A DNA stretch of 64,000 bases, from the NCBI GenBank assembly GCA_030697165.1, contig JAUYQQ010000008.1:129001-193000 (forward strand), in the 5' to 3' direction. Both the position numbers and the translations under genes were made by a program. Source of the DNA: Acidobacteriota bacterium. Lineage in GTDB: Bacteria; Acidobacteriota; Vicinamibacteria; Vicinamibacterales; UBA2999. The notes beneath the pieces are model-generated. The model was not told the DNA's origin, did not search any database, and saw nothing but the letters and a program-made list of their open reading frames with translations. Positions 9,939 through 12,917 of the stretch are shown here, one piece after another; the first letter of the stretch is position 1, and the number at the start of each line of letters is the position of its first letter.

Positions 9939-12917
9939 TTACGATCCCAATTTCGAGAACTCGTCTCGCGCCTGCAGCAGCAGCGGCACATCGGGATCGG
10001 CGTCTTTCCAGAACTCGAAGAAGGCCTGGTAGCTCTTGCGGGCCTCGTCGCGGTTACCGAGCGCCGCGTGCGTGCGCGCCAGTTCCACCATGGCATATGC
10101 CTTCGCCGTACCGAGGCCGCGCTGAAAGGTGTCCTCGGTCAGCAGGGTCAGGCCCTTGATGGCCGCCGGCCAGTCCTTGAGCTGAACCTGGGCGATCGTC
10201 CACAGGCCGATCACATCGGCGTGCTCCGGCGTAAACGCGGTTGGCTCAAGCAAGGCGATGGCTTCGCCCGGCTTGTTCTCGGCGAGCGCCAGGACGCCGC
10301 GATACGCACGCTCCGCAGTCGCGGCGGTCGAGCTGCCAGCCGACTGGCGACGCAGTTCAGCCAGCGCCTCCGGCATCAGCTCGCGCGCGCTGCGCCCGTC
10401 CCTGGTGACCGCGGCCAACACGAGGCGTTCGTCGAGCGCGCTGGCTGGTAGTAGCTCATCCTCCAAAGCCGACTCGACGCGCGCCTGGGCTTTGTCGGTC
10501 AGACCGACCATGGCCTCGTTGATCGCCAGGCTGACCAAGGCCTGGCCGACCTGGTCGCGGCGGCTGGCGGCCTCCATTCGCGACTGCCACTCGGCCGCGA
10601 AGGCCGAAGCCTGACGCAGCTGCCCGGCATACGCCGCTGCGCGAAACCGGACCTGGAGGAAGTCAATCTCCTCGCGCTTGCCGGCCACCGCCGCCACTTG
10701 CGCATCGGCCAGCGCCTGGTCGCCCGTGAGAATCGCCAGGGTGAACAGGCTGCCGCGCGCGCCGGCGTTGTTCTGGATAGCCAGCGCCGTCTCGAGCGCC
10801 GGTCGCGCGTCGGCGAAGCGGCCCTGGCTCAAATAGGTGTCTCCCAGGTTCTGCCAGGCGATCGGCTGGTCGGGCGCGACGCGGGTGGCGGCCTCCTGGT
10901 TGCGCAGCGCCTCGGTCAACTCGCCACGCTGCCGCAGCAGCAGCGCCGAATTAGCCAGCGCGGTGTAGTCGTTGGGATAGGCGGCGAGCCACACCCGGTA
11001 AGCATCAAGCGCCTTCTGTGCGTCGGGCTCCACCACGCTGTAATACCGCGCTTCAATGTAGAGCCGTTCGACCTCGCTCACCTTGGCCCGAAACTCGTGC
11101 GCCTTCGCCGTCATCTTGCGGGCTTCGTCGCCCTGGCCAAGGTTGGAATACACCGTGCCCAAGCGCGCGTACGCCAGCGCGAACTGCGGGTCGAGCTCCA
11201 CCGCGCGTCGGAAGAACGGCACCGAATCGAAGTCCCCGGTCGTGCGCCGGGTCCGCAGTCCCTGGCTGTATGCCTTGAGCGCCTCGAGTGACGGGGTCGT
11301 CGCCTCTTCGATCTTCGCGTCGTAGCGCTGAATCGAACCAAGCGACTCGCCGAGCTTCTCGCGAAACGTCGAGACCGCCCCGCCCAGGGCGGCAAGCACG
11401 GTCTCCTTCGCGTCGACCTGGACCTGTTCCTCGGCCAGCACGCTGCCGGTCAGGCAGTCCTGTGCATTGAGCGTGATCACGTAGGCCGACCCAAGCATGG
11501 CAATGGTGCCGCCAAGCAGCGCCTTGCCGCCGGCACGCTGGCACACTTCGCGGCCCACTTCGGCGGTAATCGGCTCGCTTGGATTGCGGCTCATGAGCCG
11601 CAACGTCGCCTGCACCTGTTGTTCGGACACCACCGTGAGAAACGGCGATTGGCGTAACTGCAGCGCGAGCGCCTCGCCAAGCGTGTCGTCGAACATGGTG
11701 TCGCCGGTGCGGTTCACGACCGACGACAGCACCACGGTGTCCTTCTCGGTCAGCGCCGGGGTCGTGATCGAGCGGTAGAGCAGGAAGCCGCCGACCAGGG
11801 CCACCGTCACGAGCGGCGCGCCGATCAAGAGGCCCTTCCGCCAGCCTCGAGCGGGAGGTGCCGCAGGAGCCGACGGCATGGTCCGGCTAAAGCCGGACGC
11901 CACATCAGTGGTGCCGGACGCCACATTAGCCGTGCCGGACGCCGGTATGGTCCGGCTAACCACCTTCGCCGAGGCTCCGGCGGTCAAGAAGCCGGACGCC
12001 ACATCAGATGTGCCGGACGCGGCATCGACCGGCGCGGCCGCGACGGCGGTGGTGCCACTCTCGGCCGCCCGCTTCAGGCGCTTCAGGTCGGCGCGCAGTT
12101 CCGCGGCGCCCTGGTAACGCGTCTCGCGATCCTTCTCGAGCGCCTTGTCGATGATGTGATCGAACTCCGGCGTCAGCCCCGCCCGCAGCTGCGACGCCGG
12201 CAATGGCTTCTTCGTGAGCAGCCCTTCGAAAATGGTCGCAACCGTCGTGCCGGGAAACGGCAGCTGTCCGGTCGCCATCTCGTAGAGGACGATGCCGGCG
12301 GAGAAGACGTCGCTGCGGGCATCAATCTCCTGCCCGCGCGCCTGCTCCGGCGACATGTACGACACCGTCCCAATCGTTGTCCCCATCGTCGTCAACTGAT
12401 CGGTGGCGCCGATGGTCGAGTCCAGGTGGTCCTGGCCACGCACCGTCTTACTGAGCTTGGCGACGCCGAAGTCGAGCACCTTCAGCGTGCCGCGGCGGGT
12501 AAGGAACAGGTTGGCGGGCTTGATGTCGCGGTGGACAACGCCCTGGGTGTGTGCGGCGTCGAGCGCATCGGCCATCTGCGCGCCCAGTTCGAGTACTTCC
12601 TCGAGCGGCATGGCGCCCTTGGCCACGCGGTCCTTCAGCGACTGGCCGTCGAGCAGCTCCATGACCATGAACTGCCGGCCCAAATGTTCGCCGATGTCGT
12701 AGAGCGTGCAGATGTGCGGATGGTTCAGGCTCGACACGACGCGCGCTTCGCGCAGGAAGCGCTGCACGGCCCCGGCGTTGGCGTTGGCTTCGTCCGGCAG
12801 GAACTTGATGGCCACCTTGCGGCCGAGTCGCGTGTCTTCAGCCTCGTAGACGACACCCATGCCGCCGGCGCCCAGGCGCGACAACACCCGGTAGTGCGAG
12901 ATGGTTTCGCCGATCAC
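9939..12917 (-). CDS. Ser/Thr protein kinase with transmembrane segment and TPR region
   Basis: A 992-residue membrane kinase. Its N-terminal protein kinase domain has GAGGMG near residue 16, K38 in VAIKFL, catalytic D131 in HRDIKPANL and D149 of DFG. An Ala/Ser/Thr-rich linker (residues about 280-350) follows, then one transmembrane helix near 357-378, then a TolB-like region and TPR repeats to the end. It probably phosphorylates cytoplasmic targets in response to signals sensed by the outer half. Its ATG overlaps the stop of the MASE1 histidine kinase by 4 bp, so the two are translationally coupled. The linker codons are a dispersed DNA repeat (see 11881-12030). Confidence 0.93.
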   Translation of the reverse strand: MIGETISHYRVLSRLGAGGMGVVYEAEDTRLGRKVAIKFLPDEANANAGAVQRFLREARVVSSLNHPHICTLYDIGEHLGRQFMVMELLDGQSLKDRVAKGAMPLEEVLELGAQMADALDAAHTQGVVHRDIKPANLFLTRRGTLKVLDFGVAKLSKTVRGQDHLDSTIGATDQLTTMGTTIGTVSYMSPEQARGQEIDARSDVFSAGIVLYEMATGQLPFPGTTVATIFEGLLTKKPLPASQLRAGLTPEFDHIIDKALEKDRETRYQGAAELRADLKRLKRAAESGTTAVAAAPVDAASGTSDVASGFLTAGASAKVVSRTIPASGTANVASGTTDVASGFSRTMPSAPAAPPARGWRKGLLIGAPLVTVALVGGFLLYRSITTPALTEKDTVVLSSVVNRTGDTMFDDTLGEALALQLRQSPFLTVVSEQQVQATLRLMSRNPSEPITAEVGREVCQRAGGKALLGGTIAMLGSAYVITLNAQDCLTGSVLAEEQVQVDAKETVLAALGGAVSTFREKLGESLGSIQRYDAKIEEATTPSLEALKAYSQGLRTRRTTGDFDSVPFFRRAVELDPQFALAYARLGTVYSNLGQGDEARKMTAKAHEFRAKVSEVERLYIEARYYSVVEPDAQKALDAYRVWLAAYPNDYTALANSALLLRQRGELTEALRNQEAATRVAPDQPIAWQNLGDTYLSQGRFADARPALETALAIQNNAGARGSLFTLAILTGDQALADAQVAAVAGKREEIDFLQVRFRAAAYAGQLRQASAFAAEWQSRMEAASRRDQVGQALVSLAINEAMVGLTDKAQARVESALEDELLPASALDERLVLAAVTRDGRSARELMPEALAELRRQSAGSSTAATAERAYRGVLALAENKPGEAIALLEPTAFTPEHADVIGLWTIAQVQLKDWPAAIKGLTLLTEDTFQRGLGTAKAYAMVELARTHAALGNRDEARKSYQAFFEFWKDADPDVPLLLQARDEFSKLGS
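11881..12030 (-). repeat. GTCCGGC-family dispersed repeat inside the kinase coding sequence
   Basis: Several tandem and partly degenerate copies of the genomic repeat: GTCCGGCTAAAGCCGGAC at 11881-11898, then CCGGACGCCACAT units. They are read in frame by the kinase as ASGTTDVASGFSRT-like peptides (residues about 296-345). The same DNA is intergenic at 9865, 24749 and 58620, so this looks like repeat insertion and expansion tolerated in an unstructured linker. Confidence 0.88.

Follow-up and report, generated by a model that had tools for sequence, protein, structure and literature searches.

Genes for REP-associated tyrosine transposases (RAYTs) flanked by inverted repetitive extragenic palindromes (REPs) with a GT(A/G)G head are described in the passages used here of Nunvar et al. 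2010 (PMC2817692); in one such system cleavage has been reported with GTGG (PMC8266576), and an inverted pair of REPs has been proposed as the mobile unit (PMC3116915). The corresponding passages of Di Nocera et al. 2013 (PMC3733652) distinguish GTAG from CGTC families and report REPs within genes as well as stretches of 43–82 residues encoded by repeats, and further precedents are the Rickettsia palindromic elements (RPEs; Ogata et al. 2000, through PMC2229807 and PMC2996958). RAYT-linked GTAG REPs, intragenic REPs and RPEs are therefore already known and, because counts for three genomes are tabulated in a paper that describes REPs as seldom overlapping coding regions (PMC12306157), REPs in Acidobacteriota are not new either. 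Here we describe a REP found in a 64-kb stretch of an Acidobacteriota genome (64,000 nucleotides, hereafter the window), where an array of copies is read in frame within the linker of a Ser/Thr kinase. It is very probable, in our view, that we are dealing with a REP linked to a RAYT and headed by GT(A/G)G, dispersed in the order and inserting in frame into genes.

The core palindrome, GTCCGGCTAAAGCCGGAC, consists of a 7-bp stem (GTCCGGC/GCCGGAC) and the loop TAAA, and lies within the limits for GTAG-type REPs (stem 5–13 bp, loop 2–20). The coding-strand unit is ATGTGGC-GTCCGGCTTTAGCCGGAC, the translation of which, VASGFSRT, bears out the original prediction that this peptide motif is the repeat read on one strand. 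Allowing two mismatches, the genome (5.39 Mb, 23 contigs) contains 214 forward and 198 reverse matches to the palindrome, or 412 strand hits, compared with one and three for the reversed pattern; because such palindromes usually match both strands, we estimate about 206 sites, so that the element is dispersed and of high copy number, as GTAG-type REPs are. The closer study covered 80 stretches: clusters of perfect copies defined 71 of them, and copies of a second repeat, B, the other nine. These drew on the 100 perfect copies listed, with no deliberate sampling of the late C22 and C23. The headline counts refer to the 149 copies in this sample with two mismatches or fewer, of which 143 have a one-sided tail and six none. 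The unpaired head of the tailed copies is GTGG in 75 and GTAG in 64, the other four having different heads. Neighbouring copies lie less than 70 nt apart in 60 pairs, 29 of them with tails facing, and thus form inverted dimers and clusters. Membership of the CGTC-tagged family was ruled out, as the stem starts with GTCC rather than AT and RAYT linkage is seen in relatives.

In the window kinase, the Pkinase domain occupies residues 9–269 and the predicted membrane helix residues 366–385, and the REP-coded stretch lies between them at about residues 296–346. The array comprises the following features.

9939–12917, minus strand: Ser/Thr kinase of 992 amino acids with linker, predicted membrane helix and TPR domain, host of the array (open reading frame, Pfam, orthologues, structure model)
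11881–11905, plus strand: perfect REP hairpin GTCCGGCTAAAGCCGGAC with the tail GCCACAT; GTGG head on the minus strand; codes for VASGFSRT
11913–11926, plus strand: half-unit GCCGGACGCCACAT
11950–12004, plus strand: composite, a REP hairpin with its loop split by B and with a tail; codes for VASGF-LTAGASAKVV-SRT
11962–11983, plus strand: repeat B, ACCTTCGCCGAGGCTCCGGCGG, 22 bases, in the loop of the composite; dispersed in the genome
12012–12025, plus strand: degenerate half-unit with two mismatches

The original prediction had several tandem copies forming about 50 codons of this linker; both the length and the place stand, but the array is not simply tandem, being made up of a full hairpin, half-units and a hairpin split by B. 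A structure model of the kinase, built on seven sequences only (mean pLDDT 68.7), has low confidence at residues 289–373, which is consistent with disorder, although other parts are low too.

The kinase linker was compared in nine orthologues; L008 and L009, with match figures identical to those of L037 and L038, were not counted twice, and the more distant L012 and L013 were omitted. The corresponding linker of the closest orthologue (L037) has one REP copy, which reads NVASGFSRT, and that of L038 retains at best a possible remnant. No REP with three mismatches or fewer was found in the linker of the other seven (L010, L011, L039–L042 and L045), all of which conserve the kinase and helix flanks. 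Insertion into a tolerant linker, as originally predicted, is therefore well supported, and a linker shared by all orthologues with varied DNA, the sign of conservation at the protein level, was not what these nine sequences showed.

We suggest that the linker probably gained one copy in the ancestor shared with the closest relative, and that more insertions or local duplications, among them the composite with B in its loop, would then have extended the array to about 50 codons. It is quite possible, if on balance somewhat doubtful, that a single REP landed and that slippage during replication, or recombination among the half-units, produced everything else without more transposition; the tandem half-units are 21 bases apart and the closest relative has one copy, as such a history would have it, but the B-in-loop composite recurs at other loci and that module therefore probably arrived ready-made. 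Repeat B is itself dispersed, with 67 matches in the genome and none for its control, and by a simple rule it lies inside a REP loop at 14 of the 24 sampled B sites, the window site included; the ten outside include L119, which is clipped at the end of its stretch. Another of the ten, identical to the B consensus (L120, 3501–3522), lies outside the main REP and apparently within a different hairpin. B may be a loop insert common to several REP families.

Elsewhere in the window, perfect copies of the palindrome are present at 9865–9882 and 58620–58637, in addition to that at 11881–11898 in the kinase, with a variant at 9920–9937. Seven strand hits were found with three mismatches or fewer, against 0.16 expected, and none of 100 shuffles reached seven; all copies except those of the kinase reading frame lie between called genes. 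The dispersed intergenic copies predicted at 9865, 24749 (a variant) and 58620 were confirmed.

9865–9937, no strand assigned: inverted REP pair, intergenic, between convergent genes and directly past a stop codon
24742–24767, plus strand: REP variant with a changed loop and a GTAG head, GTCCGGCTTCTTGCCGGAC, intergenic (sequence match)
58620–58644, plus strand: single REP with tail, intergenic (sequence match)

The inverted pair folds into a single long hairpin (z −8.3).

In order to identify a transposase associated with the REP, we examined RAYT loci in this genome and in relatives. The genome itself has six Y1_Tnp genes, none with a REP within about 1.5 kb and none in the REP-flanked clade described below, and linkage to these six was accordingly rejected. 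Three of them (L004, L005 and L006) are each adjoined by a different palindrome, as judged by eye, which suggests that there are several separate REP–RAYT systems in this genome. Twelve relatives gave 42 transposase matches, 30 loci of which were examined; together with the six, a REP was found beside seven of 36. A profile search matched 34 of the 36 (all but L148 and L164), and L139 and L162 were excluded from the tree as having too few columns. All seven REP-flanked RAYTs fell in one supported group (96/94) with one unflanked member. A clade profile made from those eight proteins was searched in 40 genomes (39 relatives and this one) and gave ten matches of at least 210 bits, nine of which are beside a REP, in nine different genomes; eight are flanked on both sides and one (L170) downstream only, and the tenth match (L187) is without a REP. 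None of the other 20 loci fetched had a REP beside it, and three lower-scoring rows had no locus. REP copies are more numerous in the genomes with a flanked RAYT (Mann–Whitney, 2e-5), which have 64–884 strand hits each, while among the other 31 only four have at least 44 (412 in this genome, then 84, 54 and 44). In one relative (G005), the open frame of the RAYT gene itself (L161, 1381–2037) reads VASGFSRT in an N-terminal extension; the REP may have become part of its own transposase's reading frame, or translation may really begin further downstream.

These associations are consistent with a REP that became distributed across this acidobacterial order, probably mobilized by the Y1 (HuH) transposase that adjoins it in relatives, landing mostly between genes and often as inverted pairs. 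Insertions within genes would survive where their net length preserves the frame and the frame is stop-free, the palindrome then adding to a linker or loop a short peptide rich in Gly, Ala, Ser and Lys (VASGFSRT, VRLKPDAT or GPAKAGHHI), probably as a neutral passenger.

The distribution of the copies was determined with a codon-usage gene caller written for this analysis. Of the 149 sampled copies, 83 are intergenic, 59 lie within called genes and seven lie across a gene end, and 41 of the 100 perfect copies listed are within genes; 88% of random 18-mers would be expected to fall within a gene, and REP density per kb is 11.5-fold lower in genes than between them. Given this share within called genes, a strict description of REPs as seldom overlapping coding sequence does not apply here, and the proposal that the repeat enters coding linkers proves general for this genome of some 206 sites. 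The intergenic copies with both neighbours called lie between genes running in the same direction in 49 cases, convergent in 25 and divergent in 12, the available gaps of at least 18 bases numbering 187, 60 and 65, respectively. Frames and genes were counted with up to three mismatches (157 copies, including chance matches such as one in L087, aminotransferase-like by reading). Fifty genes carry a REP or B, the repeat being interior rather than near an end in 30, and the 62 in-gene REP copies are read as VASGFSRT (26), VRLKPDAT (19), GPAKAGHHI (15) and MWRPALAG (2). The last, an open frame, is rarely used; paired copies are not independent and the statistic is indicative only.

A second genome, from another family of the same order (G028), was sampled in 40 stretches around perfect copies and behaves like the window genome in its share of in-gene copies: 30 of 85 copies (two mismatches or fewer) are in called genes, 49 are intergenic and six overlap a gene end, with 20 genes affected and 12 of these in the interior. 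Of L277 and L283, one has REP residues directly after DFGLAKT and is kinase-like by reading, and the other is a large protein with four REP copies that is SMC-like by reading alone.

Kinases recur among the carriers. A search of the window genome with the kinase domain of L102 as the query (E up to 1e-60) gave 25 matches, ten of which have REP-coded residues, in single, paired, tandem and longer forms, at one loop of the catalytic domain between …IYGxEE and ALVMELVEG; by our own reading this loop is the β4–β5 turn. The proteins of L051, L052, L091 and L102 are 38–45% identical along their length. In other genomes, two of 23 loci (L202 in G001 and L226 in G008) have a degenerate single copy at this loop, and L215 and L227 are unreadable there. 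This hotspot, and the fact that the linker RNA of the window kinase is more stable than its own shuffles (z −3.75, a result that any palindrome would give), could mean that coding copies are kept for function, their hairpins tuning translation of the kinase gene or the loops altering kinase activity. We consider that improbable, since 15 of the 25 kinases lack the insert, many unrelated enzymes have one-off insert sites, in-gene copies are depleted as described above, and paralogue ancestry or gene conversion could account for the kinase loop. Unlikely as well, if marginally less so, is the broader proposal that the REP serves as a recurrent donor of protein segments in the order, with recurrent, separate invasions of the loop in paralogues and species, retention favoured by altered kinase behaviour and stop-free, hydrophilic frames tuned for host tolerance.

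The preferred reading, in-frame insertion by a dispersed REP, extends to conserved enzymes. A Pfam scan of 20 of the 30 genes with interior repeats, with the window kinase scanned separately, found families for 18, and in 11 the domains span or bracket the repeat. In GlmU the insert corresponds to an 18-residue gap in solved homologues, and of the 13 orthologues found in 16 genomes only two, from this genome and G006, have it, at the same site. In PurL it corresponds to a 19-residue gap relative to solved homologues, in MurC the match to solved homologues is interrupted at the repeat, and in PriA the insert lies between the DNA-binding and helicase domains. In-frame inserts resembling those of RPEs, in conserved proteins with empty counterparts, are thus seen in the kinase and GlmU by comparison with orthologues, and in PurL and MurC by comparison with solved homologues. 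Further carriers are the glycine cleavage P-protein, a beta-lactamase/NamZ fusion and a nickel insertion protein, which we take to be LarC; in a uracil-DNA glycosylase gene the repeat lies ahead of the domain.

A number of observations weigh against the reading of a RAYT-linked REP that inserts in frame. One member of the RAYT clade (L163, fetched a second time as L187) has no REP beside it, and the assembly of the window genome has no flanked-clade RAYT despite its many sites, its best match scoring 168 bits; the clade member may have been lost, or may fall in an assembly gap broken by the repeats themselves. Three further genomes, those with 44–84 strand hits, are also without a clade RAYT, and current mobility is doubtful in all four. 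PurD has a gap of only about six residues relative to solved homologues, and an HI0933-like protein has no clear gap at the repeat, both in weak alignments. Lastly, in 20 of the 50 repeat-bearing genes the repeat is near an end, where a home-made caller may misjudge the start or stop. Taken further, this last point would make many of the 'coding' copies artefacts of gene calling or pseudogenes, which is very unlikely, given the Pfam domains around the repeat in the 11 interior genes and matches to solved homologues at near full length in four of the proteins. That the linker is an ordinary low-complexity Ala/Ser/Gly sequence under selection at the protein level, its likeness to the REP being convergent, is scarcely credible and was rejected: the equivalent place in L039 holds an unrelated Ser/Ala/Pro repeat, so the site does tolerate simple repeats, but the match is at the DNA level (a perfect 18-mer with tail and B, all dispersed and intergenic elsewhere), most orthologues are empty, and three stop-free frames are in common use across the sampled genes, so that no single peptide is under selection.

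As originally suggested, the repeat's hairpins might influence how a two-kinase operon is translated. Two other features of the window were noted, the histidine kinase gene upstream of the Ser/Thr kinase and, within a called open reading frame (2800–5034), an imperfect tandem array of 5.6 copies of a 24-base unit at 4381–4516.

12914–15013, minus strand: MASE1-HisKA-HATPase-receiver gene, upstream of the kinase and overlapping its start by four bases (open reading frame and Pfam)

What emerges is a known kind of selfish DNA adding protein sequence, to dozens of genes, on an unusually large scale. For the study of mobile DNA as a source of protein sequence, it offers an abundant natural series: dozens of insertions lie within called genes, conserved domains span or enclose at least 11 of them, sister species have empty sites in both of the genes examined for this, the donor palindrome is readable, and there is a candidate mobilizing enzyme. 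The kinase-loop hotspot makes the choice between a neutral passenger and a new regulatory loop directly testable. There is also a warning for annotation, in that VASGFSRT, VRLKPDTT and GPAKAGHHI in acidobacterial proteins may be repeat DNA rather than conserved domains. In the open-licence literature, as represented by titles, the starts of abstracts and passages, we recognized no paper describing this REP or its peptide motifs in Acidobacteria, and the share of copies within genes, the kinase-loop hotspot and the composite with B seem to be new.

Comparison with the described systems, as given in the passages cited, places the element as follows. It shares with the CGTC-tagged repeats (PMC3733652) a short hairpin, intragenic copies and, at the foot of some copies, a CGTC string, but here the GTC is paired in the stem, the stem does not start with AT and a transposase gene is linked. 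Like the RPEs, it is a dispersed palindrome found both between genes and in frame within conserved proteins (PMC2229807); however, RPEs are 105–146 bp long (PMC2229807), compared with an 18-base unit and tail here, and the present REP uses at least three frames and is linked to a RAYT in relatives. With the GTAG REP/RAYT systems (REPtrons; REP doublets forming hairpins, REPINs; and bacterial interspersed mosaic elements, BIMEs) it has in common a short palindrome, a one-sided GT(A/G)G head, high copy number, inverted pairs and clusters, an adjoining RAYT in relatives and a frequently intergenic position. It differs from them in that about 40% of the sampled copies are in genes, against the usual description of REPs as seldom coding (PMC12306157), and in that no RAYT of the flanked clade is seen in the window genome. 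In the passages cited of Di Nocera et al. (PMC3733652), Acidobacteria are named for transposases flanked by terminal inverted repeats only, with no mention of a kinase-loop hotspot or of a composite with B in its loop. The intragenic REPs described there nevertheless resemble ours in having linkers and loops as presumed sites, in coding for extra residues and in targeting replication and repair genes, and the clusters coding for 43–82 residues in Thauera and R. conorii resemble the array in the window kinase.

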